From Blastococcus sp. TF02A-26 (GTDB lineage: Bacteria > Actinomycetota > Actinomycetes > Mycobacteriales > Geodermatophilaceae), in the NCBI RefSeq assembly GCF_003319125.1, contig NZ_QOHG01000006.1, positions 1 through 64,000 of the forward strand: a stretch of DNA of 64,000 nt. The letters are read 5' to 3'. Shown piece after piece: positions 2,041-62,519 of the stretch. Position 1 is the stretch's first letter. The number at the start of each line of letters is the position of its first letter. The position numbers were made by a program, and so were the translations under genes. The notes under the pieces are model-generated. The model was not told where the DNA came from and made no database searches. It saw only the letters and a list, made by a program, of their open reading frames with translations.

Positions 2041-2125
2041 CCAACTTCCCACTCATCAAGACTCACGAGACGCCCTGGACCTTGGCAATCGTCGACGAGG
2101 TGCAGGCGATTACACACGCCACGCC

Positions 2126-3011: not shown

Positions 3012-3076
3012 TACTCACCCCCTAGCGTCGTGTTGATGGGGACTTCGGTGAACCGAGGAGTCGCCGATACGAGGAC

Positions 3077-44151: not shown

Positions 44152-44158
44152 CCGGCGC

Positions 44159-45513: not shown

Positions 45514-45580
45514 GACGCCTCCCGGTGTCGGGGGCGCGGCCGCGCCCCTCGCCGGTGCAGACCGGCGAGGGGCCCCGAAG

Positions 45581-45967: not shown

Positions 45968-46042
45968 GGGGTTCCTCCTCGATGGGGTGGACCCCGGTGG
46001 TTCCCGCCACGGACCCCCGGTAACCGCCGGTCCGTGCGGGGG

Positions 46043-47230
46043 CTACTGCAGGGCGCTCCCCGCCCGCCACTCGTCCCAGGAGATCGTCCAGTCGTAGATG
46101 TCGCCGTCGGCCCGGCTCAGCGGCGGGCCGATCGAGTTCTTGATCTCCACGACGTCGCCGGCCTGGGAGAAGCTGAAGAACCACGCGGCGCGTTCGGTCG
46201 ACATGTTGATGCAGCCGTGGGAGACGTTCGCCCGGCCCTGCTGGGCGACCGACCACGGGGCCGCGTGCACGAACTCGCCATTGTTCGAGATCCGGACGGC
46301 GTACTCGACCGGCGTGCGGTAGCCACCGGGGCTGTCGGCCGGCACGCCGTAGGTGCTGGAGTCCATGACCCGGTTGCGGTTGAGCTCGGTCACCACGTGG
46401 ATGCCGTTGTGGCTCGGGTTGTCGTCGCTGCCGGCGCTGATCGGGTAGGTCTGCACGAGGCGGTCGTCCTCGTAGACCTCCATCGTGTGCGAGGCGGCGT
46501 CGGCGACCGAGACGTGCTTGTCGCCGATGCGGAAGGAGATGGTGCGGTCCTTCTCGCCCCAGACGCCGCCGCCGAAGTCCACGCCGTACAGGTCGGCGTG
46601 CAGCGTGACGTCGGTGTTGGCCGGCCAGTAGGTCGAGGGCCGGAAGTGCACCTCGGAGTCGCTCATCCAGCTCCAGACGCCGTCGGTCGGCGTCGAGCTC
46701 TCGACCAGCAGATGGCTCTCCACGGCGGCCTGGTCGACGACGGGCTCGTCGAAGTAGACCCGGATCGGCAGGCCCACGCCGACCGTCTGCCCGTCCAGGG
46801 GCCCGATGTCGGGCGTCGACACCTCGCCCGGGGTGACCGTGGTGAAGGTCGCCTTCTGCTCGACCACGTCCTCGTCCGCGCCCTCGGCGCTGGCCGTCAG
46901 GGTGTAGGTGGAGCCGTAGGCCAGCTCGACGTCCGGCGTCCACACGTCGACGGCGGGGTCCTCCGCCGAGTCGGCGACGCTGCCCGGCACGGGGGCACCC
47001 GCCCCGTCGGTCACCACGACCTCGGTCAGCTCGCCGTCGGCGACGGTGATCTCCAGGGGCACGACCGGGGAGACGTCGGCGCTGCCGTCCGCGGGGCTGA
47101 GCGACACCGTGGCCGGCACGGCCTCCGCGCTGCTGGACGCCCCGGACGAGCTCCCGCCGCCCCCGTCGTCCTGGCACCCCGCGAGCAGGAGCATCGCCCC
47201 CGCCATGGCCACTGCCGCAGTCCGTCGCAC
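46043..47230 (-). CDS. L,D-transpeptidase lipoprotein with Ig-like domains
   Basis: A cell-wall enzyme that forms 3-3 crosslinks in peptidoglycan. The 395-residue protein has a lipobox LLLAGC with Cys19 for lipid anchoring, a Gly/Ser-rich linker, two Ig-like domains (about 45-240) and a C-terminal YkuD domain with the catalytic Cys340 in SHGCINMS and the His in FVHAAPWS. The layout matches actinobacterial LdtMt2-type enzymes. The GTG at 47230 gives a proper signal peptide. An upstream in-frame extension to 47413 runs into the tRNA and is not credible. Confidence 0.94.
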   Translation of the reverse strand: MRRTAAVAMAGAMLLLAGCQDDGGGGSSSGASSSAEAVPATVSLSPADGSADVSPVVPLEITVADGELTEVVVTDGAGAPVPGSVADSAEDPAVDVWTPDVELAYGSTYTLTASAEGADEDVVEQKATFTTVTPGEVSTPDIGPLDGQTVGVGLPIRVYFDEPVVDQAAVESHLLVESSTPTDGVWSWMSDSEVHFRPSTYWPANTDVTLHADLYGVDFGGGVWGEKDRTISFRIGDKHVSVADAASHTMEVYEDDRLVQTYPISAGSDDNPSHNGIHVVTELNRNRVMDSSTYGVPADSPGGYRTPVEYAVRISNNGEFVHAAPWSVAQQGRANVSHGCINMSTERAAWFFSFSQAGDVVEIKNSIGPPLSRADGDIYDWTISWDEWRAGSALQ

Positions 47231-47406
47231 TCGGTCCTTCTCCCCCTCGGTCCCCGCCGGCCCCGCTTCCGGGACCGCCCGGTCCAGGCTCCCACGAGAT
47301 GGCGGAACGGGAACGGCCGCCGGACGCCGTCTCGGAGGGCCCCCGACCGGTCGCTGCTCCGGCGCTGGTATCGTTCTCCCTCGTCGCCCGGGCAGCCGGG
47401 AGACAC

Positions 47407-47479
<73 letters not shown>

Positions 47480-47485
47480 CCCACC

Positions 47486-47522
47486 ACGAAGGGCCCCTCC
47501 GCAGTGCGGAGGGGCCCTTCGT
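47486..47522 (+). terminator. Terminator after tRNA-Lys
   Basis: A perfect 17-bp inverted repeat (47486-47502 with 47506-47522) and a 3-base loop begin 6 bases after the tRNA. Confidence 0.9.
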
Positions 47523-47588
47523 CGTCCCGGGGTGTGAACCTGGTCGCAGTGCGTGCGGGCGCCGACCCGCGCGGGCACGCCGCGGGGT

Positions 47589-47777
47589 GTGACTGCCGAG
47601 TTCCGCTACACCCGCGAGGAGGCCGAGCGGGACCGGATCGGCTGGTGCCGCTGCGGACTGTCCGGCCGCCAGCGCCACCGCCGGGTGACCGCGACCGGCG
47701 TCGAGCCGCCGCTGTTCGTCCGCAGCGACTGGGTCTGCCGGGGCACGTGGCCGGGCGAGCACCTCCGCCGCAACTGA
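47589..47777 (+). CDS. Small hypothetical protein
   Basis: A possible 62-residue protein starting with GTG, with WCRCGLSGRQRHRR near the middle (a Cys-x-Cys and a basic run) and SDWVCRG toward the end. Three Cys and conserved-looking aromatic residues suggest a real small protein, possibly metal-binding, but no strong ribosome binding site is seen and no family is recognised. It is convergent with the amidohydrolase. Confidence 0.45.
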   Translation: MTAEFRYTREEAERDRIGWCRCGLSGRQRHRRVTATGVEPPLFVRSDWVCRGTWPGEHLRRN

Positions 47778-47787
47778 CCGCCCGGGG

Positions 47788-48966
47788 TCACCAGAGGCGG
47801 TAGAGCTCCGCCGCGTTGCCGCCCATGACCGCGAGCTGGGTCTCCGGGCGGAGCGCGCTGATCGTCTCCTTGACCATGTCGAGCGGGTTCGGGTGCAGGG
47901 ACGTCGGGTGCGGGAAGTCGGTCTCGAACATGACGTTCCCCTCGCCGACGGTGTCGATCAGGTGCTGCAGGTCGCCGCGGCCGCGCTCGAACCAGAAGGT
48001 GGCGTACCAGTTGTCGCGGAAGTACTCCGACGGCCGCTTCTGCAGCTTGTCGAACCACTCGGGAGCGTTCTCCTCGAGCTCGTAGTCCATCGCCTCGAGC
48101 ATGAACGGCACCCAGCCGATGCCGCTCTCGACGGAGACCATCTTCAGCCCGGGGTGCCGGTCGAACATGCCGGAGTAGGCGCTGTTGAGCAGCACCTGGG
48201 AGTTGTTGAGGAACAGGGAGGCGCCGCCGATCGCGGGCTTCACGTACTCGTCCTGGCTGGGCCAGTAGGTGGTGCCGAAGTACGACAGCGAGGTCTGGCT
48301 GGCCCCGATGTGGAAGTGGACGGGCAGCCGCATGCCGTCGCAGACCTCCCAGAACGGGTCCCACGCCGGGTCGCCGAGGTCCGCGGAGCCGGCGTCCTGC
48401 GGGTGGGCGGTCATGTTGACCCCGCGCATGCCCATCTCGGCGCAGCGCTGCGCCTCGCGCACGCAGGCGTCGATGTCCCACGCCGGCATGATCGGCATCG
48501 GAAGCAGCCGGTTGCCCGACGCGGCCTGCACCTCGGCCATGTGGTCGTTGTAGATCTCGACGACCAGGCGCAGCAGCGCGGGGTCGGAACCGGACTTGGC
48601 GAAGTTCTGCCCGCCCAGGCCGATCGCGTTCGGGTAGATGACCTGGCTGTGGATGCCGAGCTCGTCCATGAGCTCGATCCGGGCCTCCGGGTCCCACGCG
48701 GCCCTGTGCACGTCCTGGATGCCCCAGGACCCGCCCTGCGAGTCCCGCCACGGGTGCTTCCTGCCCTCGTGGTCGATGGTCCCGCCCGAGCCGGCGCGAC
48801 CGAACGTCCTGCCCTCGATGACCCACATGTCCACGCCGTCGATGCGCTCGACGTGGGGCACACGATCCTCGTACCCCTTCGGCGCCCGGGCGGTGAACAG
48901 GTCGTGGCGCTCCGTCATGTGGGCGTCGGCGTCGACCACCCGCAGACCCTCGACCAGCGCGGTCAT
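47788..48966 (-). CDS. Amidohydrolase-family protein (ACMSD-like)
   Basis: A metal-dependent TIM-barrel hydrolase or decarboxylase of 392 residues, of the amidohydrolase-2 branch that includes ACMSD and gamma-resorcylate decarboxylase. Seen: VVDADAHMTE (metal ligands near the N-terminus), LGIHSQVIYPNA, PVHFHIGAS with the barrel His, SVESGIGWVPFMLEAMDYE, and MFETDFPHPTS with the catalytic Asp. These enzymes often act on carboxylated aromatic or cyclic intermediates. The upstream TetR gene on the same strand suggests regulation, and the catabolic locus to the right suggests a shared pathway (inference). Confidence 0.9.
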   Translation of the reverse strand: MTALVEGLRVVDADAHMTERHDLFTARAPKGYEDRVPHVERIDGVDMWVIEGRTFGRAGSGGTIDHEGRKHPWRDSQGGSWGIQDVHRAAWDPEARIELMDELGIHSQVIYPNAIGLGGQNFAKSGSDPALLRLVVEIYNDHMAEVQAASGNRLLPMPIMPAWDIDACVREAQRCAEMGMRGVNMTAHPQDAGSADLGDPAWDPFWEVCDGMRLPVHFHIGASQTSLSYFGTTYWPSQDEYVKPAIGGASLFLNNSQVLLNSAYSGMFDRHPGLKMVSVESGIGWVPFMLEAMDYELEENAPEWFDKLQKRPSEYFRDNWYATFWFERGRGDLQHLIDTVGEGNVMFETDFPHPTSLHPNPLDMVKETISALRPETQLAVMGGNAAELYRLW

Positions 48967-49039
48967 GCGTGCCTCCTCGTGCGGCGGGGCGCGTCCCCAC
49001 CCTGGAACCGACGCTACGGACGCCGCACGAGGATTACAA

Positions 49040-49055
49040 CAGTTGATTTAAACTG
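49040..49055. promoter_or_regulatory. Small inverted repeat between TetR and amidohydrolase genes
   Basis: CAGTT (49040-49044) and AACTG (49051-49055) flank a 6-base A/T-rich centre, overlapping the TetR stop codon. It is the most A/T-rich spot nearby and lies upstream of the amidohydrolase. It is a possible operator or promoter element. The evidence is positional only. Confidence 0.35.
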
Positions 49056-49719
49056 GATCGCTCACCGGCGCGAGCCACAGCCCGACCACCGCGTCGACGA
49101 TGCCGGTCGCCGCCTCCTGCCAGCTCGCCCGCGGCGTGGGGCGCCCCTCGGCGAGGGCCCGCTCCCGGTCGGCGCAGCCGTGCACCAGCAGCTGCACCTC
49201 CATCGCGCGGCGCTCGTCGTACACGGCGTCGGGGAGGTCCCGCACGCACCCGCGCAGCCCCTCCACCACGCGCCGGAGCGCCGGCGACCGCGCGCTGTCC
49301 TCGAGCGCCAGCTCGCGCAGGGCGGGATCGGTGACCACCTGCGCGCGGAACCGGGCGAACCAGGTCGGGTCGCCGAGCTCGGCGAGATGGTCGGTGGAGG
49401 GGCAGACCAGGCACGCGACCCAGTCCCGGAGGTCCGGCTCGGGACCGAGGGCGTCGACCATCTCCTGGCGGCGCCGCTCGATCGGCTCGGAGTGGCTGCG
49501 CAGGATGGCCTGCACGAGTTCGGGCTTGGTCCCGAAGTGGTAGCCGACGGCGGCGCTGTTGCGCTGACCCGCGGCCTCGCTGATGTGCCGGTGGGACACC
49601 GCGGTGACGCCCCGCTCGGCGAAGAGCCGCTCGGCGGTCGCGAGGATCAGCTGCCGGGAGGCGGCGCTGCGCTCCATCCGCACCCGCCCCTCGGGTCGGG
49701 TCTCCTGCGCGTCGCTCAC
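49048..49719 (-). CDS. TetR-family regulator
   Basis: A 223-residue regulator. The HTH spans about residues 20-66: SRQLILATAERLFAERG, VSHRHISEAAGQRNSAAVGYHFGTKPELV. The C-terminal helical domain contains PDLRDWVACLVCP and a YDERRAMEVQLLVHG segment, typical of the TetR subgroup with TetR_C domains. It lies 81 bases upstream of the amidohydrolase on the same strand, which it probably regulates. The GTG at 49719 was chosen. An internal ATG 14 codons later is possible. Confidence 0.9.
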   Translation of the reverse strand: MSDAQETRPEGRVRMERSAASRQLILATAERLFAERGVTAVSHRHISEAAGQRNSAAVGYHFGTKPELVQAILRSHSEPIERRRQEMVDALGPEPDLRDWVACLVCPSTDHLAELGDPTWFARFRAQVVTDPALRELALEDSARSPALRRVVEGLRGCVRDLPDAVYDERRAMEVQLLVHGCADRERALAEGRPTPRASWQEAATGIVDAVVGLWLAPVSDPV

Positions 49720-49756
49720 GCGGGCGAGGCTAGCGGCGCAGGCCGCCGGACCTGTT

Positions 49757-50500
49757 TCAGGCGACCCCGCCCGCTGCCCGGTCCTGCGCCTGGCGCGCCT
49801 GCCACCGCGCCAGCCGCGTGCGCACCAACCGGACGTGGCGGGCGGTGACACGCTCGGCCTCGTCGGCGTCGCCGCTGGTGATCGCCCGGGCGATGTCGTG
49901 GTGCTCGGCCACCGACAGCCGCGCGTACTCCGGGTTCGCCCACCCGCTGGGGAAGGCCAGGTTCGTCCGCGACGACCAGGCGGCCAGGGTGTCGCACAGC
50001 ACCCGGTTGCCCGCCGCCCGGTGGATGTAGGAGTGGAAGGCGCGGTCGAGCTCCATCAGCGTGGACTCCTCGGCGAGGACCGGGCCCGCGACCGCGCGGT
50101 CCTGCTCGACGAGCATCGCCTCGAGGCGTTCGACGTCGGCCTGGCTGAACCGAGCCGTCGCCAGGCGCGAGGCGAGGGCCTCCAGTGGCTCCTTGACCTC
50201 GTAGATCTCCATGAGCTCCCGACGGTCGAGCTCGACCACCTGGGCCCCGCGGTGCGGCACGTGGGTGGCCAGGCCGTCGTGGATGAGCCGCTGCACCGCC
50301 TCGCGGACGGGACTGCGACTGAGGCCCATGTCGCGCGCCAGCGCGGAGACGCTGAGCGGCGACCCCGGGGGCCGCTGGCCGGAGAGCACACTGCGCCTCA
50401 GCTGCCGGTAGGCCGTGTCGGCGAGCGACCCACCGATCGCGTCCTCACCACCCTGGGTCTGCGCGGCCTGCGCGAACGGGACGACGCCCTGCTCGGCCAT
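49757..50500 (-). CDS. GntR-family regulator, FadR subfamily (FCD)
   Basis: A 247-residue regulator. The N-terminal winged helix (about 28-95) reads DTAYRQLRRSVLSGQRPPGSPLSVSALARDMGLSRSPVREAVQRL. The C-terminal FCD domain (about 105-230) keeps the metal-binding pattern: FHSYIHRAAGN, and EHHDIARAITSGDADEAERVTARH with its two His. Such regulators sense small organic acids. The ATG has GGAGGCGGT before it. It is divergent from the FAD-linked oxidase operon, with TGCATGCA palindromes between, so that operon is the probable target. Confidence 0.93.
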   Translation of the reverse strand: MAEQGVVPFAQAAQTQGGEDAIGGSLADTAYRQLRRSVLSGQRPPGSPLSVSALARDMGLSRSPVREAVQRLIHDGLATHVPHRGAQVVELDRRELMEIYEVKEPLEALASRLATARFSQADVERLEAMLVEQDRAVAGPVLAEESTLMELDRAFHSYIHRAAGNRVLCDTLAAWSSRTNLAFPSGWANPEYARLSVAEHHDIARAITSGDADEAERVTARHVRLVRTRLARWQARQAQDRAAGGVA

Positions 50501-50545
50501 GACGACCGCCTCCCTCCGGTTGACCAGGCGCCGAGCATAGCCACC

Positions 50546-50553
50546 TGCATGCA
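50546..50553. promoter_or_regulatory. TGCATGCA palindrome, copy 1
   Basis: An 8-base palindrome in the context CCTGCATGCAGTT, 46 bases before the GntR start. It matches the second copy at 50773, and a half copy (ACATGCAG) lies at 50643. Candidate operator for the GntR protein, inferred from position. Confidence 0.5.
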
Positions 50554-50772
50554 GTTGATCTGCCCGCGCGTCTCAGCGGTTCGGTGGATCCGAGGAGCGG
50601 GCAGCCGATCTCGCATAGCCACGGATCTCGGTCGTCGGTCTACATGCAGCCCATCCGCGACCTGCGGCCGCCCGGCATGGCCGGAAAGGCGCGTTGCCGC
50701 ACGTAACGCAGTGTTGACGAGGCGAGCGCCCAGCCGAAACGGGAGCGCCCTTGACTCCGCTGCAGCCGGGAT

Positions 50773-50780
50773 TGCATGCA
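50773..50780. promoter_or_regulatory. TGCATGCA palindrome, copy 2
   Basis: The same 8-base palindrome followed by GT, 43 bases before the oxidase ATG at 50823. Together with copy 1 it brackets the otherwise empty 322-base gap between the GntR gene and the FAD-oxidase operon. No gene is supported in that gap. Confidence 0.5.
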
Positions 50781-50822
50781 GTCACCGACGCGATCAGCCC
50801 GCCACCGGATGAAAGAGCACCC

Positions 50823-52268
50823 ATGACCCTCTCCACCAGGCCCCGGTCCGCCTCCTTCGTCGACGCGCTGGTCGACGCGCTCGGTGAGAGCCGCGTGGTC
50901 GAGGACCGGGCCAAGATCGGTCGCTACCTGCGGGACTTCTCCTGGTACAGCCCGATCCTCGAGTCCGCGCTCGCCGACACCACCGTGACGGCGGTCGCCA
51001 AGCCCGACTCGCTCGAGGCGCTGCGCGAGACGGTCGCGATCGCGGCGCGGAACCGGGTGCCGCTCACGATGCGCGGCGCCGGCACCGGGAACTACGGCCA
51101 GTCCCTCCCGCTCGAGGACGGGCTGGTGGTCGACGTGAAGGGCGTGGCCGGCGTCCTCGACGTCAGCGAGGGACGCATCGCCGTCCTCCCCGGGACCACG
51201 CTCAAGGCGGCCGAGGAGGCGGCCCGGCAGACCGGCCAGGAGCTCGCGGTCATGCCCAGCACCTACCGCGTCGCCACCGCCTCCGGCTTCATCTGCGGCG
51301 GCTCCGGCGGCATCGGCGCCTCGGCGCACGGCGACCTGTGGAGCGGCAACGTCCTCGCCGTCGAGCTGCTCACCGTGACCGACGCCCCGGAACCGGTGCG
51401 CCTCGAGGGAGACCAGGTCAACGCCGTCCTGCACACCTACGGGACGATCGGCGTGATCACGCGGGTGGAGCTGCGGCTGGTCCCCCGGCACGAGTACACC
51501 GCCTCGTTCGTGACGTTCGGCGACTTCGCCGACGCCTGCGCCTTCGGCTGGGACCTCGTGGACTCCGCCGTGCACACCCGCCTCGCCTCGGTGCAGCAGG
51601 CACCGATCGGCGGCATGTTCACGCCCCTCGCCGAGCTCGTGGGCGACACCGGCCACGTGGTGCTGGTGTGGAGCGACGTCGAGGACGACGCCGCACTCGA
51701 CGAGCTCGTCGCCCGGCACCGCGGCACCCGCGCGTCGTGGCCCGACGGCGCTCCGCACATCACCCAGTTCCCGTACAGCCACACGATCCTCTGGTCGCGC
51801 CGGGCCGATCCCTCGTCCTCGTGGCTGCAGTGCGAGTACGCCGCAGACGACCGCGGCCGCTTCCTCGATCAGGTCGCCGCGCTCACCGAGCGGTTCCCCG
51901 GCGTCTTCCTCCAGCACGTGGAGATCAACAAGTCGCGGGACGGCGGAGTGCGGTGCATGGGCATCCCGCCCCTGATGGGACTGCCCGACCACGCCGGCGC
52001 CCTGGACGAGCTGATCGCCTTCTGCACCGGCATCGGCGTCGTCGTCCTCAACCCGCACAGCTACGTGGTCGAGGAGGGCGGGTTCGTCGGGGACGTCGCC
52101 GAGACGCTCGCGCTCAAGGAGCGCTGCGACCCGCTCGGGATCCTCAACCCCGGGAAGCTCGGCGCCAGCTTCTTCGCCGCCCGCCGGTCCGTCTCCGACG
52201 CCGGGGACCTCGACCTCCGCTCCCCCGAACAGCTCGACGACCCGGACGGAGCCGGCGCCCAGCGCTGA
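50823..52268 (+). CDS. FAD-binding oxidoreductase (GlcD/PCMH type)
   Basis: A flavin-linked oxidase or dehydrogenase of 481 residues. The N-terminal FAD-binding (PCMH) domain shows PDSLEALRETVAIAARNRVPLTMRGAGTGNYGQ, VVDVKG and ATASGFICGGSGGIGA. The C-terminal substrate domain ends with LALKERCDPLGILNPGKLG, as in glycolate and D-lactate oxidase-like enzymes. The substrate is probably a 2-hydroxy acid or alcohol, but this is not fixed by sequence. The ATG at 50823 is preceded by GAAAGAG. It heads a run of six plus-strand genes controlled by the divergent GntR gene. Confidence 0.9.
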   Translation: MTLSTRPRSASFVDALVDALGESRVVEDRAKIGRYLRDFSWYSPILESALADTTVTAVAKPDSLEALRETVAIAARNRVPLTMRGAGTGNYGQSLPLEDGLVVDVKGVAGVLDVSEGRIAVLPGTTLKAAEEAARQTGQELAVMPSTYRVATASGFICGGSGGIGASAHGDLWSGNVLAVELLTVTDAPEPVRLEGDQVNAVLHTYGTIGVITRVELRLVPRHEYTASFVTFGDFADACAFGWDLVDSAVHTRLASVQQAPIGGMFTPLAELVGDTGHVVLVWSDVEDDAALDELVARHRGTRASWPDGAPHITQFPYSHTILWSRRADPSSSWLQCEYAADDRGRFLDQVAALTERFPGVFLQHVEINKSRDGGVRCMGIPPLMGLPDHAGALDELIAFCTGIGVVVLNPHSYVVEEGGFVGDVAETLALKERCDPLGILNPGKLGASFFAARRSVSDAGDLDLRSPEQLDDPDGAGAQR

Positions 52269-52324
52269 ACCGCCCCCTCCCCAGCCGGTCGATCCGCCCA
52301 CCCGACGCGACCCGAGGACCCCCC

Positions 52325-53419
52325 ATGCGCACACGCACCCTGCCCACCACCACGTCTCTCGCGCTCGCAGCAGTGCTGGTGCTGTCCGCCTGCGGCAGCG
52401 AGGACGACCCCGAGCCGGCGGCCGCGACCGACCTGGTCTCCGCCGAGCGCTGCCAGGCGAACCGGGACGCCGGCCCCATCACCTACCTGTCGTCGTTCGA
52501 CCTCGGCGGCAGCGTCGCGATCCTCAACGTGCTCGCCGCCGAGGAGCTCGGCTACTTCGACGACCTGTGCCTCGACGTCGAGCTCCAGCCCTCGGCGGAG
52601 AACAACGCCCAGCTGCTCTCCGCCGGGACCGCGCAGATCGCGGGCATGGGCAGTGCCAGCGACGTGATGACCGCCATCGCCAACGGTGCCCGGATCACCG
52701 GCGTCGCCACCTACGGCGCGGTCGGGCAGGTCGCACTGATGACCCGGGCCGGTGAGATCACGTCGCTCGACCAGCTGGCGGGCCGGACCCTCGGCTACAA
52801 GATCGTGATGCCGGCGCAGGTGCGGGCCATGCTGGAGAGCGAGGGCGTGGACCTCGGCGAGCTGGACCTGGTGTCGGTGGGCTTCGACCCCACGATCCTG
52901 CCCAACGGCGACGTCGACGCCCTGACCGGTTACAAGGACAACGAACCCGGGGTCCTGGACCGCTCGGGGCACGACGTCGACGTCTGGTCGCCGACCGACT
53001 ACGGCGTCGAGGGAACGTTCTCGGTCGTGGCCACCAACACCGACTGGGCGGTCGAGCACCCCACCGCCGTGGAGGACTTCCTGCGGGCGTCGTTCCAGGC
53101 CTACTCCTGGATCGAGGAGGACGAGGCCCACCTCGACGAGGCGATCGGCTGGGCGGAGGACCGCGCCACGTCCGGGTTCGACGCGACCAACCAGCGGGCC
53201 CGGTGGGTCGCGGGTGCGCAGCTCATCGAGGACAACCTGCTCGAGGGACACGGGCTCGGCTACCAGACGCCCGAGTTGTGGGCGCCCGAGGCCGAACTGA
53301 TCTCCCGGTACGGCATCGTCGACGACGAGGTGGACCCCGCGGCCGCGCTCACCACCGAGTACCTCGACGCCATCTACGACGGCGACCAGCTCGTCTGGCC
53401 CCCGGCCGCGGGGAACTGA
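52325..53419 (+). CDS. ABC transporter substrate-binding lipoprotein (NitT/TauT/NMT1 type)
   Basis: The extracytoplasmic receptor of an importer for a small organic compound, of the group that carries nitrate, taurine, sulphonates or thiamine-precursor pyrimidines. The 364-residue protein has a lipoprotein signal with VLVLSACGS (lipid-anchored Cys in the first 25 residues), then ILNVLAAEELGYFDD and LSAGTAQIAGMGSASDVMTAI, the NMT1 pattern. A loop of Asp/Glu-rich residues ends it. It is 56 bases downstream of the oxidase and is followed by the ATPase and permease genes. Confidence 0.93.
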   Translation: MRTRTLPTTTSLALAAVLVLSACGSEDDPEPAAATDLVSAERCQANRDAGPITYLSSFDLGGSVAILNVLAAEELGYFDDLCLDVELQPSAENNAQLLSAGTAQIAGMGSASDVMTAIANGARITGVATYGAVGQVALMTRAGEITSLDQLAGRTLGYKIVMPAQVRAMLESEGVDLGELDLVSVGFDPTILPNGDVDALTGYKDNEPGVLDRSGHDVDVWSPTDYGVEGTFSVVATNTDWAVEHPTAVEDFLRASFQAYSWIEEDEAHLDEAIGWAEDRATSGFDATNQRARWVAGAQLIEDNLLEGHGLGYQTPELWAPEAELISRYGIVDDEVDPAAALTTEYLDAIYDGDQLVWPPAAGN

Positions 53420-53424
53420 GCCCG

Positions 53425-54291
53425 ATGGCCACCCGGACCTCGCCGACGCCGACGCCGACCCTGCCGGCCGCCGTGCCGGCGCCGCTCCCCCCGCCCCCCT
53501 CGGACGACGCCTGCATCCGCGTGCGGGGCGTCTCGCGGAGCTTCCCCGGCCGGGGCAGCGACGTGCTGGTCCTCGACGGGGTGGACCTGACCGTCCCGCA
53601 GGGCAGCTTCGTCACCCTCTTCGGGCCGTCGGGGTGCGGCAAGACCACGCTGCTGCGGATCCTCGCCGGGCTGCAGACCCAGGACGAGGGCGAGGTCCGG
53701 CTCTTCGGGCAGACCCCCGGCCAGGCCGCGAAGGACAAGAACATCGCCTGGATCCCCCAGTCCTCCGCGCTCCTCCCCTGGGCCGGCGCCCGCCGCAACG
53801 CCGACCTGTCTCGGCGGGTCAACCGCCGGGCCGGCCGCCGCGACGCGGACCGGCGGGCCCCGGGCGACCCGGTGGCCGTGCTGGGCGAGATGGGGCTGGC
53901 CGGCTCGGTCGACCTGCTCCCGCACCAGCTCTCCGGCGGCATGCGGCAGCGGGTGTCCCTCGCCCGCGGCTTCGTGCAGTCGGCCCCGCTGATGCTCATG
54001 GACGAGCCGTTCTCCGCACTCGACGAGCTCACCCGTGAGGGCCTGCGCTACCAGCTGCTGGACACCTGGGAACGCCACCGCAGGACCGTCGTGTTCGTGA
54101 CGCACTCGGCCACCGAGGCCGTCCTCCTGTCGGACACCGTCGTGGTGATGTCGGCCCGGCCCGGCCGGATCTCGACCGTCATCGACGTGGACCTCCCCCG
54201 CCCGCGGCCCGCCGGCATCGACGCGTCGCCCGAGTTCCACCGGACCGTGGCCCGGCTGCGGGCCGCCGTCGACGCGGGGAGGACGGCATGA
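53425..54291 (+). CDS. ABC transporter ATP-binding protein (NitT/TauT type)
   Basis: The ATPase of the importer, 288 residues. After a Pro/Thr-rich leader it has Walker A GPSGCGKTT, a Q-loop (IPQSSALLPW), the signature LSGGMRQRVSLARG, Walker B LMLMDEPF, a D-loop SALDE and the switch His in VTHSATEA. The segment between the Q-loop and signature is unusually rich in Arg (about 12 in 30 residues). It lies 5 bases after the receptor stop and overlaps the permease start by 4 bases. Confidence 0.95.
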   Translation: MATRTSPTPTPTLPAAVPAPLPPPPSDDACIRVRGVSRSFPGRGSDVLVLDGVDLTVPQGSFVTLFGPSGCGKTTLLRILAGLQTQDEGEVRLFGQTPGQAAKDKNIAWIPQSSALLPWAGARRNADLSRRVNRRAGRRDADRRAPGDPVAVLGEMGLAGSVDLLPHQLSGGMRQRVSLARGFVQSAPLMLMDEPFSALDELTREGLRYQLLDTWERHRRTVVFVTHSATEAVLLSDTVVVMSARPGRISTVIDVDLPRPRPAGIDASPEFHRTVARLRAAVDAGRTA

Positions 54292-55112
54292 CCACCGGGA
54301 TCGCCACCGCTTCCCCCTCGACCAGCACGGACGTGCCGCGGCCGGCCCCGGCGGCGCCGCGGCCCCGCCGCCGCCGCCGTCGGTGGCCGCGGACCGTGCT
54401 GCCCCCGCTGGTCACCTTCGCGCTGCTCGCCGTGCTCTGGGAGTGGGTCGCCACCGTGCAGGCCAGCGTGCTGCCGAGGCTCCCCGACGTCGCCACCGCC
54501 CTCGCCGAGGAGCCCGACCTGTTCCTGTCCAACCTCGGCTACACGCTGGGCTCGGCGGCCCTCGGGTTCGTCATCGGGGTCTCGGTGGCGTTGGTGCTGG
54601 CCGTGCTCGTCGTGCACGTACCCCTGCTGCACGCGGCGATCATGCCGGTGGCCGTGCTGATCCACGCCACGCCCGTGCTCGCCATCGCCCCGGCCCTGAT
54701 CGTGGCGTTCGGCTTCGGGAAGCTGCCGCACGTCCTCATCGTCGCGCTGATCACGTTCTTCCCGATGCTGATCAACGCCATCGCGGGTCTGCGGTCGGTG
54801 TCCACGGAGCTGCTCGACGTGTTCCGCTCGATGGCGGCCGGCCGGATGGAGGTCTTCTGGCAGCTGCGGCTGCCCTCGAGCCTGCCGTTCCTGTTCGCCG
54901 CCGGGAAGACCTGCGCGACGCTGGCGATCATCGGCGCGATCGTCTCCGAGTTCACCGGCTCGGTCGAGGGCATCGGCGCGGTGATCATCACCTCGACGAA
55001 GTACCTGGACCTGCCGCAGATGTGGGCCGCCATCTTCCTCTCCGCGTTCGTCTCCCTGCTCTGCCTCGGCGCCGTCGGCCTGGCCGAGCGCCTCGTCGTC
55101 CGCTGGCGCTGA
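54288..55112 (+). CDS. ABC transporter permease (NitT/TauT type)
   Basis: The membrane channel of the importer, 274 residues. A basic N-terminus (PRPRRRRRRWPR) is followed by about six transmembrane helices. The binding-protein-dependent transport EAA-like loop is FRSMAAGRMEVFWQLRLPSSLPFLFAAG, which contacts the ATPase. Its ATG overlaps the ATPase stop (ATGA). Only one permease is present, so the channel is probably a homodimer. Confidence 0.95.
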   Translation: MTTGIATASPSTSTDVPRPAPAAPRPRRRRRRWPRTVLPPLVTFALLAVLWEWVATVQASVLPRLPDVATALAEEPDLFLSNLGYTLGSAALGFVIGVSVALVLAVLVVHVPLLHAAIMPVAVLIHATPVLAIAPALIVAFGFGKLPHVLIVALITFFPMLINAIAGLRSVSTELLDVFRSMAAGRMEVFWQLRLPSSLPFLFAAGKTCATLAIIGAIVSEFTGSVEGIGAVIITSTKYLDLPQMWAAIFLSAFVSLLCLGAVGLAERLVVRWR

Positions 55113-55146
55113 CGGCACTCCCCACCCCGACACCGGAGGAACGACC

Positions 55147-56187
55147 ATGTCCCCCCTCGCACCCCCCGACCTCGTGCCGGTCATCGACATCAGCGGCTTC
55201 GTCGCCGGCACCGACCTCGAGACAGCTCCCCGCCTCATCCGGGAGGCGGCCACGACCACCGGCTTCTTCCAGGTCGTCGGCCACGGGATCGACCCCGCCC
55301 ACTTCGACGCCGCCTACGCCGTCGCCGAGGTCCTCATGGCCCTGCCGGAGGAGGTCAAGGCCACGCTCGGGTCGCCGTCCGGGCACCCCTACCGCGGCCT
55401 CATGCGCAACTACGACAAGCAGGGCGCCCTCGTCTCCGAGGGCTTCACCATCGCCCGCTTCGACGGTCCGGACGACGCCCGGGCGCACGGCGTCCCCGAG
55501 GAGTACCTGGGCTTCTTCGTCGAGAACGTCTGGCCCCCCGTCGAGGGGTTCGCCGACGCGATGGGCGAGCTGGCCCGGCACACCCGGGGCGTCGGTCGGC
55601 AGCTGATGAGCGCGTTCGCCCTCGCTCTGGACCTGCCGGCCGACCACTTCGACGAGGGCCTGGTCCTCGACACGACGACCTCGACCATCCGCTCCTACCC
55701 GCCGCACCGGGACGCGTCGCGCACCGGCGAGTCGGTCGTCTTCGACTCCCACTTCGACGGCGGCATGCTCACCCTGCTGCACCAGCGCGGGACCTACGAC
55801 GGGTTGCAGATCCTCGCGCAGGACGGCGAGTGGTACACGGTGCCGACCGACGACGCGGCGTTCGTCATCAACATCGGCGAGCTCATGCACCGCTGGACCA
55901 ACGGGCGCTGGCCGGCGACCCGGCACCGGGTGGTGTCGGCGTCCGACCCCGACGGCCACCGGTTCACGCTCCCGACGTTCTACCGGGCCTCGGTGGACAC
56001 GGTGGTGGCGCCGCTGGAGACGCAGATCGGTCCGGAGGGCGCGCTCTTCGAGCCCGTCACGGTCCTGAGCTGGGAGGGCCGGCACATCCTCTCCAGCTTC
56101 CGCGAGCGCGAGCACACGAGCGCGCACCCGGCCTCGGAGGCCTACGTGGCCCGCCTGGAGGCCGCGGTCGGGGCATCGAGGGCCTGA
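55147..56187 (+). CDS. Isopenicillin-N-synthase-family 2-oxoglutarate/Fe(II) oxygenase
   Basis: A non-haem iron oxygenase of 346 residues. The DIOX_N-type start is PVIDISGF, with TTGFFQVVGHGID. The iron ligands are His and Asp of DSHFDGG and the His of ATRHRVV, with the 2-oxoglutarate-binding Arg in HRFTLP. All are present, so it should be active, by hydroxylation, ring opening or desaturation of a small substrate. The GGAGGAACG ribosome binding site is strong. It lies 34 bases after the permease, so the imported compound or its product is the likely substrate. Its stop overlaps the next start. Confidence 0.9.
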   Translation: MSPLAPPDLVPVIDISGFVAGTDLETAPRLIREAATTTGFFQVVGHGIDPAHFDAAYAVAEVLMALPEEVKATLGSPSGHPYRGLMRNYDKQGALVSEGFTIARFDGPDDARAHGVPEEYLGFFVENVWPPVEGFADAMGELARHTRGVGRQLMSAFALALDLPADHFDEGLVLDTTTSTIRSYPPHRDASRTGESVVFDSHFDGGMLTLLHQRGTYDGLQILAQDGEWYTVPTDDAAFVINIGELMHRWTNGRWPATRHRVVSASDPDGHRFTLPTFYRASVDTVVAPLETQIGPEGALFEPVTVLSWEGRHILSSFREREHTSAHPASEAYVARLEAAVGASRA

Positions 56188-56591
56188 TGGCGGTGCCGCT
56201 CGCGCTGCCCCTGGACCACACCGGGCTGGAGACCTCGAGGATCGAGGCCGACGTCGCCGGCTACGCGGCGCTGGGCGCGCGCCTCATCCGGTGGGGCCTG
56301 CACGCCCCCACCGGGGGACGCATCGCCATGCTCCGCGCCCCGGGCGGGACGAAGATCGAGCTGATCGAGGTGCACGACGGCGACGGCACCTGGGCGCACA
56401 CGGCCTTCCTGGTGACCGACCCGGACGACCTCGCCGGGACCCACGACCGCCTGGTGGCGGCCGGTCTGGTCGAGGTCCGGCCGCCGTTCGCGATCCCCGC
56501 CGCGCGGGCGGAGAGCTCGTTCCTCCGCACCCCGGGTGGCTCGTCCATCCAGCTCATCGCCTACCACCCCGGGAGCCCGGACCTGCCCTGA
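56187..56591 (+). CDS. VOC-family (glyoxalase-like) protein
   Basis: A 134-residue metal-dependent protein of the vicinal-oxygen-chelate fold. Two beta-alpha-beta-beta-beta units are seen: LDHTGLETSRIEADVAGY, with GGTKIELIEV, then HTAFLVTDPDD, and FLRTPGGSSIQLIAYH at the end. The His and Glu ligand positions are kept. It could be a lyase, isomerase or dioxygenase acting on the oxygenase product. The ATG overlaps the upstream stop (TGATG), so it is translated together with the oxygenase. Confidence 0.87.
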   Translation: MAVPLALPLDHTGLETSRIEADVAGYAALGARLIRWGLHAPTGGRIAMLRAPGGTKIELIEVHDGDGTWAHTAFLVTDPDDLAGTHDRLVAAGLVEVRPPFAIPAARAESSFLRTPGGSSIQLIAYHPGSPDLP

Positions 56592-56613
56592 CCGGACGCG
56601 CCACGGTCCCGGC

Positions 56614-58131
56614 TCACCGGGCGCCGACGCGCTCCGCAGCCAGCCGGGACCGGTTGATCTTGCCGGCGCCGGTGCGCGGCAGCTCGTCGACGATCTCGAA
56701 GGACTTGGGCACCTTCGGCCCGGCCAGCCGCTCCTTGCACCACGCCCGCAGCTCGCCGGCGGTCGGCGGCTCCGCCGCCGACCGCGGCTGGACGACGGCG
56801 TGCACGGCACGCTGCCACTCCGGGTCCGGGACGCCGACCACCGCGACGTCGGCGACCTCGGGGTGCTCCGAGAGGGCGGCCTCGACCTCGGCCGGGAAGA
56901 CGTTCACCCCGCCGGTGACGATCATGTCCTGCCGGCGGTCGGCGATGTAGAGGTAGCCCTCGGCGTCCAGCCGGCCCATGTCGCCGAAGCTGCGCCACCC
57001 GCCGTCGGCCGGAGCCGGCGTCTCGGCCCCGACGTAGCGGAAGGGGTCGCTCTCCCCCGACCGCAGCCGCAGCCAGATCTCGCCGATCTCCCCCGGCGGC
57101 AGGTCGCGTCCGTCGGCGTCCCGGACGGCGACGTCGCAGTCGGCGCCGCGCCCCGTCGTGCCGGGGTGGTCCAGCCACTCGCGGCCGGTGCAGGCGACGA
57201 TCCCCAGCCCCTCGCTGCCGCCGTACGTGAACAGGAACCGTTCGGGCGGCACGAGGTCGAGCCAGGTGCGCGCCACCCACTCCGGCAGCACCGCGGCGCC
57301 GTAGACGACCCGCTGGAGGCTGGAGAAGTCGCGGTCGCGGACGCCGTCGAGCCGGGCGATCCGCTGCAGCATCGTCGGCACCATGATCGCCGCGGAGACG
57401 CGGTGCCGTTCGACCAGGTCGACCACCCGGGCGGCGTCGAACCGCTCGACGAGCACCACCGGGTCGCCGGCCAGCAGCGTCGTGTAGCAGGAGGCGTAGC
57501 CGTTGGCGTGGTACAGCGGGCACACCGCCAGCACCCGCTGCCCGGCCGGGATGACGCCCGGACCGGCCGGCACGTAGCGGGCCGGGGAGGGCGCCACGAT
57601 GATCTTCGGCGTCCCCGTGGAGCCCGACGTGGCGATCAGCCGCGCGTACGGCGGCATGCGGTCCCCGGGCGGCGGGGTGTCGTCCTCGTCCGTCGTGGCA
57701 CGGACGTCGGCGAGGGCCAGCGTGCCGGGCGGTGGATCGGGCCAGTCCCCCACGAGCAGTCGCGGCTCGGCCAGGGCCAGCAGCCGGTCGCGCTCCCAGC
57801 CCGGCAGCTCCGGGCGCAGCGGGAGGACGGCGGCGCCGAGCTTCCAGGCCGCGAACGTCGTCATCACGTGCTCGGCGTTGCTCGGCAAGCCGACCGCGAC
57901 GAGGTCGCCCTCGCCGACCCCGGCGCGGGCCAGCCGGTGCGCGACCTGGTTGGCGCGACGCTCCAGGGTCGCCCACCCGTAGCGCTGCTCCGAGCCGTCC
58001 GCGGCGGCCACCACCAGCGCGGTGTGCTCGCCCAGCTCCGTGGCCAGCTCGGTCAGCCTGCGCCCGTACGGGATCCCCTCGTCGGCCCCCACTCCGCCTC
58101 CTCCGCGCGCTCCCGGCGTGTCGACCCTCAC
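56614..58131 (-). CDS. AMP-dependent acyl-CoA synthetase/ligase
   Basis: An adenylate-forming ligase of 505 residues that makes a CoA thioester from an acid. Seen: TSGSTGTPKI (P-loop-like ATP site), YGGSEGLG, DRRQDMIVTGGVNVFPAEVE and the catalytic Lys in PRTGAGKINRS. N-terminal length and motifs fit the fatty-acid or aromatic-acid group rather than acetyl-CoA synthetase. It converges on the oxygenase-VOC pair and could activate an acid product of that pathway. Starts with GTG, 47 bases from the divergent MFS gene. Confidence 0.92.
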   Translation of the reverse strand: MRVDTPGARGGGGVGADEGIPYGRRLTELATELGEHTALVVAAADGSEQRYGWATLERRANQVAHRLARAGVGEGDLVAVGLPSNAEHVMTTFAAWKLGAAVLPLRPELPGWERDRLLALAEPRLLVGDWPDPPPGTLALADVRATTDEDDTPPPGDRMPPYARLIATSGSTGTPKIIVAPSPARYVPAGPGVIPAGQRVLAVCPLYHANGYASCYTTLLAGDPVVLVERFDAARVVDLVERHRVSAAIMVPTMLQRIARLDGVRDRDFSSLQRVVYGAAVLPEWVARTWLDLVPPERFLFTYGGSEGLGIVACTGREWLDHPGTTGRGADCDVAVRDADGRDLPPGEIGEIWLRLRSGESDPFRYVGAETPAPADGGWRSFGDMGRLDAEGYLYIADRRQDMIVTGGVNVFPAEVEAALSEHPEVADVAVVGVPDPEWQRAVHAVVQPRSAAEPPTAGELRAWCKERLAGPKVPKSFEIVDELPRTGAGKINRSRLAAERVGAR

Positions 58132-58178
58132 ACGGGAAGCCTCTCCGGTCCAGGTCCGCCGGGTGCGACCATCGATCT

Positions 58179-59561
58179 GTGGCGCGGCGGAGGTGGATCA
58201 CCGCCGCCCTGCTGCTGGGGCTCTTCACCACCGCCTTCCCCTCGACGATCCTCACCATCGCCGTCCAGCCGATCGCCGAGGACCTGGACGCGTTGCCCTC
58301 GACCGTCGTCTGGGTGACCACCGCACCGCTGCTGGCCGCGGCCGTCACCACCCCGCTGTTCGGCCGGCTGGGCGACCTCTACGGGCACCGCCGGATCTAC
58401 CTCGCCGGCATCGTCGTCGCGACCGTCTTCGCCGCGGCCAGCGCCCTGGCCTGGGACGCGACCAGCCTCATCGCCGCCCGCACCCTGTCGCAGGCGGGCG
58501 CGGCCGCCACGGTGCCGACCGCCGTCGCGCTGCTGTTCCGGGTGTCCCCGCCCGGCGAGCGGATGCGGGCCGGCGCCCGGGTCGGCGCCGTCACCTCGGC
58601 CGCGGCGGTGATCGGGGTCGTGGTCGGCGGTCCGCTGGTCGACCTCGTGGGCTGGCGGGCGATCTTCGCCGGCCAGGTCACATTCTGCGTGGTCGCGCTG
58701 GTCCTCTCCCTGCTGGTGACGCCGACCGACGGGGAACGGGCGGCCGGCTCGCTCGACGTGCCCGGCGCGCTCGCGCTGGCCGGCACGACTCTGGCGCTCA
58801 CGTTCGGCGTCAACCGGCTCGCCGTCTGGGGCTGGTCCCCGCTGCCGGTCGCCTGCCTGGCGCTGGTGCCCCTGGGCATCTGGCTGCTCGTGCGGGTCGA
58901 GCGCCGGGCCGCGTCCCCCCTGCTGCCGGTGCGCGTGCTCGGCTCGCGGAACGTCCGGGTCGTGACCGGCGCCAGCCTGCTGCTGGGCGCGGCCTACATG
59001 GGCAACTTCGTGGTCACGCCGCTGTACCTGCAGGGCGTCCTCGGCCTCACCGCCGCGGCGACCTCGCTGCTCTCCGTGCCCCGCGCCTTCTCCATCCTGC
59101 TGGCCACCCCCACCGCCGGCCGCTGGGGCACGCGCTTCGGCGAGCGGCGCGTGGTGCTCGTGGCCAGTGCCGTCTTCGCCGCCGTCCTGGCCGCGATGGC
59201 CGCCGGGGCCTGGGCGCACTCGCTGGTCGCCGTGGCCGTCGCCATCGCCCTGAGCGGCTACGCCCACGGCCACGTCGCCCCGGGCCTGCTCGCCGCGCAG
59301 GGCGCCGCGGTCGATCCGCGCGACATCGGCCTGGCCGCCTCCCTGCAGCAGACCGGCTTCCAGATCGGCGCGGTCATCGGCATCGGCCTGTTCACCGCAC
59401 TCGCCGGCGACGCGACGACGGCGGGGCCGTTCGCCATCGTGTTCCTGCTGACCGCCGGCTGCGCGCTGGCCGCGACCGTCCTGCTGGTCCGCATGCAGGA
59501 CGGCCGGACGTCCCCGGCAGAGACCGCGCCCGACCGCCTCCCGGACCAGATCGACGCCTGA
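58179..59561 (+). CDS. MFS transporter (DHA2-like)
   Basis: A 460-residue major facilitator with about 12-14 transmembrane helices. It carries TTAPLLAAAVTTPLFGRLGDLYGHRR (the loop 2-3 signature Gly-Arg-Leu-Gly-Asp with Arg-Arg), and a motif-C-like GAVTSAAAVIGVVVGGPLVD in helix 5. Motif C marks exporters of drugs or metabolites. Starts with GTG and is divergent from the acyl-CoA synthetase, so it may export or import a pathway compound (inference). Confidence 0.92.
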   Translation: MARRRWITAALLLGLFTTAFPSTILTIAVQPIAEDLDALPSTVVWVTTAPLLAAAVTTPLFGRLGDLYGHRRIYLAGIVVATVFAAASALAWDATSLIAARTLSQAGAAATVPTAVALLFRVSPPGERMRAGARVGAVTSAAAVIGVVVGGPLVDLVGWRAIFAGQVTFCVVALVLSLLVTPTDGERAAGSLDVPGALALAGTTLALTFGVNRLAVWGWSPLPVACLALVPLGIWLLVRVERRAASPLLPVRVLGSRNVRVVTGASLLLGAAYMGNFVVTPLYLQGVLGLTAAATSLLSVPRAFSILLATPTAGRWGTRFGERRVVLVASAVFAAVLAAMAAGAWAHSLVAVAVAIALSGYAHGHVAPGLLAAQGAAVDPRDIGLAASLQQTGFQIGAVIGIGLFTALAGDATTAGPFAIVFLLTAGCALAATVLLVRMQDGRTSPAETAPDRLPDQIDA

Positions 59562-59601
59562 GCGGACCAGCGCGCGGGCCCGTTCCGGCGGGTGGTGCAC
59601 G

Positions 59602-60426
59602 ATGCCAGCCGTGCCCGATGCCGAGCCCACGCTGCCGTCCGAGGTCGTCGTCGACGGCGTGCCGATCCGGTACGGCGTGACCGGCACCGGCCCCGGGAGC
59701 CTGGTCCTCGTCCACGGCCACGGCGCCCACCACGTGTGGTGGCACGCCGTCGTCCCGCTGCTGGCCGACCGCTGGCGGGTGGTGACCCTCGACCTCAGCG
59801 GGCACGGGGACAGCGGCCACCGCCCGGAGTACTCCGGGCCGCAGTGGGCCCGCGAGGTCGTGGCGGTCGCCGAGGCCGCCGGCGCCGAACGCCCGGTGGT
59901 CGTCGGACACAGCCTCGGCGGCCGGGTCGCGCTGCTCGCCGCCGGGCTGCACCCCGACCGCGTCGCCGGCCTGGTGCTGCTCGACTGCGGGATCCTGCTG
60001 CCGGACACCCTGCGCGGCCGCACGCTGCCGCCGCCCCGGCCGTCGAAGGTGTACCCGACCCGCGAGGCCGCCGTCGCGGCGTTCCGCGTCGCGCCGCCGC
60101 AGCCGGAGCCGCCGGCCGAGCTGCTCGCCCCGGTCGCCGCGTACTCGGTGCACGCGGTCGAGGGCGGCTGGACCTGGAAGCACGGCGGCCAGCAGTTCCC
60201 CACGCTGTACGACGACGAGGTCATGGCCGCGGCGCGGACCCTGTCGGTCCCGGTCGCGTACGTCTCCGGCGGCGCGAGCCTGGTGGTGGACGACGTCAAG
60301 GCCGCCGCGGTGGCCGGGATGCTGCCCGGCGTCCGCACCGCCCGGGTACCCGGCCTCCACCACCACCTCGTGCTCGAGGACCCGGCGACCGTCGCGCGCC
60401 TGATCGACGAGCTGGCCCGGGTCTGA
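59602..60426 (+). CDS. Alpha/beta hydrolase
   Basis: A 274-residue soluble hydrolase. Seen: LVLVHGHGAHHVWWHAVVPLL, DLSGHGDSGH, the nucleophile in VVVGHSLGGRVALL, and the catalytic His in GLHHHLVLEDP. It resembles lactonases or non-haem peroxidase-like hydrolases of secondary metabolism and catabolism. Whether it belongs to the pathway upstream is open. It lies 40 bases after the MFS gene and is followed by a strong hairpin. The ATG at 59602 or a GTG at 59611 may be the start. Confidence 0.87.
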   Translation: MPAVPDAEPTLPSEVVVDGVPIRYGVTGTGPGSLVLVHGHGAHHVWWHAVVPLLADRWRVVTLDLSGHGDSGHRPEYSGPQWAREVVAVAEAAGAERPVVVGHSLGGRVALLAAGLHPDRVAGLVLLDCGILLPDTLRGRTLPPPRPSKVYPTREAAVAAFRVAPPQPEPPAELLAPVAAYSVHAVEGGWTWKHGGQQFPTLYDDEVMAAARTLSVPVAYVSGGASLVVDDVKAAAVAGMLPGVRTARVPGLHHHLVLEDPATVARLIDELARV

Positions 60427-60433
60427 ACGCGCG

Positions 60434-60467
60434 GAGGGGCCGGTGCGGCGTACCGCACCGGCCCCTC
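60434..60467 (+). terminator. Hairpin after the hydrolase gene
   Basis: A perfect 15-bp inverted repeat (60434-60448 with 60453-60467) with a CGTA loop begins 7 bases after the stop. Confidence 0.85.
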
Positions 60468-60491
60468 GCGTTCCCCCTCGACCGGACGCTG

Positions 60492-60582
60492 CGTCCCCCC
60501 GTGCATCGCAGATCCCGGTCGTGTCCCTGCTCCCCGCGGACCCGGGTCCCCCCGGTCGGCGGCTCCGTCCCCCCGTGCGTCG
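60492..60582. repeat. Direct repeat with C6 core
   Basis: CGTCCCCCCGTGCATCG (60492-60508) and CGTCCCCCCGTGCGTCG (60566-60582) differ by one base and are 74 bases apart. Another C6 run lies between. They fill the gap between the terminator and the TasA-like gene stop. Role unknown. Confidence 0.65.
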
Positions 60583-60619
60583 GAGACGCCGGCCGAACCG
60601 GATCCGCGAGGTGCTGGCT

Positions 60620-61237: not shown

Positions 61238-61381
61238 TGCGGTTCTCCTTCGTCGTCCTCGTCGCGGGTGCTCCCGGCGACAGGACAGACTCTGGGCGCC
61301 GAACCGCAGGGGTCCCGCCCGGCGACCGCAAGGTCCCCGCAAGAAGCGGAAGCCCCGTGGCCGCCAGGGCGTTGACCAGCC

Positions 61382-62449: not shown

Positions 62450-62519
62450 TCCGCGGGACCTGTGAACATCCGGCCCGTGCCGGACAGAAGACCTGCGTGA
62501 ACCCCGAGAGATCCCGGAC

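Follow-up and report, generated by a model that had tools for sequence, protein, structure and literature searches.

Here we have analysed a 64,000-nucleotide stretch of Blastococcus sp. TF02A-26 (contig NZ_QOHG01000006.1, positions 1 to 64,000; hereafter the window) and delimited within it a seven-gene cassette that encodes a GntR/FCD-type regulator, an oxidase linked to flavin adenine dinucleotide (FAD), the receptor, ATPase and permease of an NMT1-type ABC importer, a 2-oxoglutarate (2OG)/Fe(II) oxygenase of the isopenicillin N synthase (IPNS) family and a small vicinal oxygen chelate (VOC) protein. The cassette is a genuine and compact module, a variant of the gene sets for purine oxidation that studies of xanthine riboswitches have made known. 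Its substrate and reactions we infer: a dioxopyrimidine ring is common to flavins and purines, and the substrate is therefore given here as a fused dioxopyrimidine, a purine-type compound being more likely than a flavin-type one. That the cassette is a satellite module importing and oxidising such a compound, most likely purine-derived, and feeding a purine-type core cluster of the host is a reading that we hold at even balance. Because it is compact, carries its own importer, regulator and likely operators, and is absent in two congeners, a purine-oxidation function could be tested in one cloning experiment.

Cassette limits and gene order

A preliminary description had joined the genes at 47788-59561 into one pathway that included an ACMSD-like amidohydrolase, an acyl-coenzyme A (CoA) synthetase and a major facilitator superfamily (MFS) transporter. 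This interval merges two units, one of which is the seven-gene cassette:

49750..56627, seven-gene cassette (GntR to VOC), absent at the equivalent site of both congeners, contiguous in Blastococcus endophyticus (locus L029)
49757..50500, minus strand, GntR/FCD-type transcription regulator (PF00392, PF07729), 83% identical in L029
50545..50554, operator-like palindrome CTGCATGCAG, one of five YTGCATGCAR sites in the host genome
50772..50781, operator-like palindrome TTGCATGCAG, another of these five sites
50823..52268, plus strand, FAD-linked oxidase FADox1 (PF01565), best PDB match 6v42 (3e-68)
52325..53419, plus strand, NMT1/THI5-like substrate-binding protein (PF09084; PDB 3ix1), a putative lipoprotein from a reading of its N-terminus
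53425..54291, plus strand, ABC importer ATPase (PF00005)
54288..55112, plus strand, ABC importer permease (PF00528), its start overlapping the ATPase stop
55147..56187, plus strand, IPNS-family 2OG/Fe(II) oxygenase (PF14226, PF03171)
56187..56591, plus strand, small VOC-fold protein (PF00903)

The limits of the cassette are set by its empty site. In both congeners (G109 and G110, the only further members of the genus in the set of 112 family genomes searched), the genes for the amidohydrolase, TetR regulator, CoA synthetase and MFS transporter are contiguous without it. For G110, window 47786-49749 aligns to positions 3692-5709 of locus L116, and the window from 56628 on aligns to L116 from 5728 on, which leaves 18 bp where the window has 6,878 bp (~6.88 kb); for G109, the alignment ends at 49734 and restarts at 56622, leaving 73 bp in the congener. 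What the congeners lack runs from GntR to VOC, about 49750-56627. Furthermore, all seven cassette genes stand together in B. endophyticus (Trujillonella endophytica in current NCBI taxonomy), 67-83% identical and at a different genomic place, so the cassette changes place. There it adjoins a flavoprotein-like gene, with MFS and alpha/beta-hydrolase genes upstream within 4 kb, i.e. on the opposite side compared with the window, and the 21-kb L029 locus gave no amidohydrolase, TetR or CoA synthetase match. Visual inspection found no repeats at the insert borders, and the G+C fraction is 0.729 in the cassette versus 0.75 in the flanks. The window may have gained the cassette, or the congeners may have lost it.

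These gene orders bear directly on the single pathway across 47788-59561, in which CoA activation and an ACMSD-like hydrolase would serve as later steps. Proximity speaks for it, as does the presence of the MFS and alpha/beta-hydrolase genes near the B. endophyticus cassette; both congeners, however, keep the amidohydrolase-TetR-CoA synthetase-MFS order without the cassette, and B. endophyticus keeps the cassette without the first three. We consider such a pathway highly improbable, and a route through CoA activation finds no support. Splitting the interval thus corrects a grouping that would mislead annotation of both units.

The gene list itself held up. Pfam matches for ten window proteins (Amidohydro_2, TetR_N, GntR with FCD, FAD_binding_4, NMT1, ABC_tran, BPD_transp_1, DIOX_N with 2OG-FeII_Oxy, Glyoxalase and AMP-binding), together with an MFS_1 profile match for the 58179-59558 frame, account for all eight gene types that had been named, though a TetR gene (49048-49677, minus strand) within the same coordinates had been passed over. 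The oxidase, receptor, ATPase, permease, oxygenase and VOC genes form one plus-strand run (50823-56591) from which the regulator gene diverges; the amidohydrolase and TetR genes flank the cassette at left and the acyl-CoA synthetase gene at right, all on the minus strand, followed on the plus strand by the MFS gene and an alpha/beta-hydrolase-like gene. Within the run, ATGA (54288-54291) is common to the ATPase stop and permease start, and TGATG to the oxygenase stop and VOC start (56187). The coupling by overlapping stops and starts is therefore real, in the form of two overlapping pairs, and placing the amidohydrolase, CoA synthetase and MFS genes with this run is unsupported; gaps of 5 bases (receptor to ATPase) and 34 bases (permease to oxygenase) separate others of the run. 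Our gene caller is simple and error-prone, and gene calls in the relatives rest on homology and profile checks more than on frames.

Proposed link to a purine-type core cluster

The FAD oxidase and the VOC protein occur as a pair. FADox1 orthologues (E <= 1.1e-170, the next match being 4.5e-51) are found in 7 of the 112 family genomes, and VOC matches (E <= 1e-12) in the same seven; among the 394 class genomes, for each of which the 10 top VOC and the 4 top FADox candidates were scored, each protein is present in two, the host and G204 in both cases. Identity to the window proteins in six g10 genomes and in G204, a member of another family, is 61-64% for FADox1 and 48-53% for VOC, and the two genes are neighbours in G204. 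Fisher's test of co-occurrence in the family without the host gave 4e-10, a value that overstates independence because the six g10 genomes are kin. Co-occurrence beyond this genome, which the preliminary description had named as a check, has two reaches: the pair recurs in family and class genomes, and the whole seven-gene block recurs in one other genome, that of B. endophyticus. The VOC protein had no plasmid match at 1e-10. Across nine aligned VOC rows, including the window's, H, E, H and Q are unchanged at the likely metal positions and probably bind metal. A single-sequence structure prediction of the oxidase, which we take to be of VAO type, gave no usable model, with a mean pLDDT (predicted local distance difference test) of 34. 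That this FAD oxidase is so strictly paired with a small VOC protein suggests a single, as yet unassigned reaction.

In the searched genomes other than the host, the pair belongs to a large purine-type cluster. In all six g10 genomes having the pair, and in G204, it lies inside a cluster with creatininase-, 8-oxoguanine-deaminase- and cytosine-deaminase-like genes, a second related amidohydrolase, a second FAD oxidase and an NMT1-type importer. Further genes, namely RutB/biuret-hydrolase-like, HpxZ-AtzE-like, ureidoglycine-aminohydrolase-like and Rieske ones, occur in several clusters of Modestobacter and Klenkia, and the cluster of G092 has a molybdopterin hydroxylase of xanthine-dehydrogenase type next to it. 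The host carries such a core cluster on contig 9 (71838-84495; L120, L127), with cytosine-deaminase-like, 8-oxoguanine-deaminase-like and creatininase-like hydrolases, a second FAD oxidase, a second NMT1 importer and an oxygenase related to one from Klebsiella; no FADox1 or VOC orthologue was matched in this contig-9 cluster. Elsewhere the host genome encodes uricase, an allantoinase above its cut-off and six MoCoBD_1 matches. The Klebsiella relative of the core cluster, on a plasmid, carries a xanthine riboswitch (RF03054, 63 bits versus a cut-off of 36) immediately ahead of its receptor-amidohydrolase-2OG oxygenase run; a divergent block with an FAD oxidase and a creatininase lies alongside.

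On this basis we propose the following route. Under its own GntR/FCD regulator, which would act through a pair of TGCATGCA palindromes, the cassette would use the NMT1-type receptor and ABC importer to take up a heterocycle with a dioxopyrimidine ring, likeliest a purine or purine derivative. The 2OG/Fe(II) oxygenase would hydroxylate or demethylate it, the FAD-linked oxidase may dehydrogenate the product, and the VOC protein could then perform a metal-dependent rearrangement or ring step. The resulting compound would pass to the contig-9 core cluster and on to uricase and allantoinase, all encoded in the host, along a flow that is presumed from gene content. In this respect the earlier proposal of a dedicated importer coupled to oxidative enzymes stands.

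Oxygenase lineage and guanidine-linked relatives

The oxygenase retains its catalytic residues: H202, D204 and H260 (the HxD...H iron triad) and R272 (the 2OG arginine) stand at the usual positions in a 13-row alignment that includes the window. In a 105-row tree it groups with oxygenases of Klenkia, Modestobacter and Pseudofrankia (Shimodaira-Hasegawa approximate likelihood-ratio test (SH-aLRT) 100), and equal support joins the contig-9 oxygenase of the host to the Klebsiella enzyme behind the xanthine riboswitch. This tree excluded loci L001-L020 and L095-L115, the duplicates L030, L033-L035 and L137, later-fetched oxygenases such as that of L176, matches that covered <60% of the query, and proteins shorter than 230 or longer than 480 aa. 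On three plasmids, including that of Paraburkholderia caffeinilytica, relatives of the oxygenase are accompanied by Rieske and nucleobase-symporter genes; in one case hpxO is present too.

Guanidine-I riboswitches were found at 6 of 16 genome-contig oxygenase loci scanned (five Pseudomonas-type, one Poseidonibacter), so this family of oxygenases has several nitrogen-rich substrates; no xanthine riboswitch was found at any of these 16 loci, L029 being counted separately. Guanidino-compound oxidation, in which the window's oxygenase would make or use a guanidine-type substrate, draws on this link and on the best PDB match of the enzyme, a 2OG-dependent ethylene/succinate-forming enzyme. The guanidine-linked oxygenases nevertheless form part of a different branch in the 105-row tree (17 rows labelled guanidine, six of whose loci were scanned), the receptors of guanidine loci are far from the window's receptor in a 25-row tree, and window 44000-64000 holds no guanidine riboswitch. 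We think this reading very unlikely.

At the six guanidine-linked loci (L086, L062, L063, L064, L068 and L074), the IPNS-family oxygenases lie within a few kb of guanidine-I riboswitches, accompanied in five of the six by guanidine-II. Separately, in Acidimicrobiia (L038, L040, L041 and similar loci), two to four genes for IPNS-type oxygenases stand in tandem next to those of an NMT1-type importer.

Importer specificity

The receptor has a single PDB sequence match, the pyrimidine-binding protein 3ix1 (E 0.001), which we take to be ThiY. The ring compound of the preliminary description is plausible; its other suggestion, a sulphonate, is not supported. Sulphonate or taurine uptake with desulphonation could be read from the NitT/TauT-type importer and a weak SsuA-family match; set against this, sulphonate- and taurine-receptor models match the receptor far under their cut-offs (SsuA-family, 31 bits versus 163.5), the protein that it does match in the PDB binds pyrimidines, the Pfam models hit by the oxygenase are DIOX_N and 2OG-FeII_Oxy, and the cassette's Pfam matches include neither an SsuD-kind monooxygenase nor a flavin reductase. 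The likelihood of a sulphonate substrate is close to negligible.

A more substantial alternative comes from the relatives of the receptor. In the 25-row tree, whose rows were chosen by hand, it groups (100/99) with the receptors of L175, a Maritalea operon (L141), a run in the distant actinobacterium G607, a locus in G532 and three neighbours of ribF. Beyond L029, its nearest relatives are those of L175 (41% identical; locus with luciferase-type monooxygenase, isochorismatase and FMN (flavin mononucleotide)-reductase genes), of the Maritalea operon (33%; NtaA/DmoA monooxygenase, ribokinase, flavin reductase and riboflavin kinase genes, of riboflavin-degradation type) and of the three ribF-adjacent importers (30-42%). 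The Maritalea monooxygenase is presumably RcaE. The G607 run (L176, 6278-12561) places a window-type importer (receptor 37% identical) on the same strand as creatininase, Rieske and IPNS-type oxygenase genes, and at the G532 locus (L179, 8943-17683) the importer is divergent to a GntR/FCD gene, and a VOC-like frame and the genes for hydantoinase A and B come next.

These flavin-associated relatives would fit a flavin-type substrate (lumichrome, lumazine or riboflavin), taken up by a relative of the RibXY importer, attacked at a ring methyl by the oxygenase and processed downstream by the oxidase and VOC protein, in a way that differs from the lum pathway. RibXY is described as a COG0600/COG0715-family importer found in Actinobacteria whose substrate probably varies (PMC4418817), and the cassette shares with it this type of ABC importer and, through the receptor, kinship with the three ribF-adjacent importers. 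Unlike RibXY loci, however, the cassette block holds no flavin gene; no FMN riboswitch was detected in window 44000-64000 or in the seven importer loci L175-L181, and the ribF neighbours are convergent rather than co-directional. Moreover, FADox1 and VOC are members of the purine-type cluster. Riboflavin and lumichrome catabolism by the Rca/Lum enzymes resembles the proposed route in breaking down a fused dioxopyrimidine oxidatively and then hydrolytically (PMC12746152), and an importer related to the cassette's sits in the Maritalea operon; the lum P450, thiamine pyrophosphate (TPP) decarboxylase, xanthine-oxidase-type enzyme, Rieske and catechol ring dioxygenases outlined there (PMC12746152) are, in contrast, missing from the cassette. 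A flavin-type substrate therefore appears unlikely, if well worth bearing in mind.

Candidate operators

The placement of two palindromes adds to the picture of a self-contained cassette. TGCATGCA occurs three times in the window versus 0.32 expected, with two copies in the 322-bp gap between the GntR and FADox genes (50501-50822). The degenerate form YTGCATGCAR has five sites in the 4.68-Mb host genome, two of them in this gap; a reversed control pattern gave six sites, so the total is ordinary and the placement alone is notable. The other three host sites lie near genes with no plain tie to the cassette pathway. The B. endophyticus locus has two TGCATGCA sites in 21 kb (positions 5413 and 5696), both again in the GntR-FADox gap. 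The paired palindromes fit a predicted operator pair for the GntR regulator.

The proposed route and known systems

The gene sets closest to the cassette are those under xanthine riboswitches in Proteobacteria, and our search for literature on creatininase/IPNS/NMT1 gene clusters found nothing nearer. Xanthine riboswitches are reported to bind xanthine and urate and to precede IPNS-like dioxygenases and NMT1/THI5-like and tauA-type ABC genes, with Rieske enzymes and guanine-deaminase-like amidohydrolases also among the genes controlled; a role of these enzymes in purine oxidation was deduced there from similarity and from the context of their genes (PMC7373994). Common to these sets and the cassette are the IPNS-type (pcbC-like) oxygenase and the NMT1/THI5 or tauA-type ABC genes; relatives add the guanine-deaminase-like hydrolases and Rieske enzymes. 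The cassette itself, in contrast, is actinobacterial and compact, adjoins a GntR gene in place of a riboswitch, has the FAD oxidase-VOC pair and a receptor of another clade, and lacks a guanine/8-oxoguanine-deaminase-like hydrolase, which is present in the host contig-9 cluster and in the FADox1/VOC-bearing clusters. Because riboswitch and receptor clade both fail to agree, it is not a member of the riboswitch-controlled set proper. A same-strand run on an Agrobacterium plasmid (L139, 9069-15017; creatininase-FADox-receptor-permease-ATPase-IPNS oxygenase) has oxidase, importer and oxygenase of the same kinds as the cassette; it differs in having a creatininase and in lacking VOC and GntR, and its proteins are distant (FADox 35%, oxygenase 28%, receptor 25% over 323 aa with E 0.70).

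Several observations weigh against the purine-derived substrate and its onward flow to the core cluster. The enzyme names in the core cluster come from weak NCBIfam matches under curated cut-offs, and the Pfam matches of the cassette include no deaminase or creatininase. A xanthine riboswitch was found at one of 36 related loci scanned, which is one of the five plasmid FADox loci (L136-L140), and window 44000-64000 contains no riboswitch of the kinds sought (xanthine RF03054 up to E=1, FMN, guanidine). The receptor falls outside the clade of purine-cluster and riboswitch-linked receptors in the 25-row tree, and the kinship of the six g10 genomes means fewer independent co-occurrence events than rows. 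The window's oxygenase is 36-44% identical to its nearest non-cassette relatives and sits on a long branch flagged by the tree program. Finally, two further plasmid oxygenase loci (L143, Sinorhizobium, and L146, Mesorhizobium) show no purine genes, which together with the guanidine riboswitches near other relatives means that the oxygenase family is not purine-specific.

It is also conceivable, on a tentative footing, that the cassette encodes an undescribed oxidative route for a fused dioxopyrimidine, which would combine a flavin-type importer, purine-type pathway enzymes and an obligatory FAD oxidase-VOC pair in a ring reaction that the pathways consulted here leave unassigned. Lumichrome, lumazines and damaged or methylated purines are examples of candidate substrates for such a route.

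The neighbouring unit and other observations

The genes surrounding the cassette are as follows:

47788..48966, minus strand, Amidohydrolase_2 protein of the neighbouring unit (PF04909), adjoining the TetR and acyl-CoA synthetase genes in G109 and G110
49048..49677, minus strand, TetR regulator of the neighbouring unit (PF00440), 85-92% identical in the congeners
56614..58131, minus strand, acyl-CoA synthetase of the neighbouring unit (PF00501), 85-87% identical in the congeners
58179..59561, plus strand, MFS transporter (MFS_1), a backbone gene kept in the congeners without the cassette; GTG start picked by hand
59602-60426, plus strand, putative alpha/beta-hydrolase-like frame just outside the interval, from a reading of the frame

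The amidohydrolase-TetR-acyl-CoA synthetase unit is conserved in both congeners. In the PDB, the amidohydrolase best matches PtmU3 and DitZ, and these matches suggest that it acts on a CoA-activated compound; G109 has two further copies. A pairing of this protein, as an isoorotate-decarboxylase-like enzyme, with a thymine hydroxylase was considered and rejected: other PDB matches come well ahead of thymine dioxygenase, and the amidohydrolase lies outside the cassette. At the far left of the window, G+C falls to 0.59-0.64 in positions 1-8000 versus 0.71-0.78 from 10 kb on, and this end is possibly acquired DNA.

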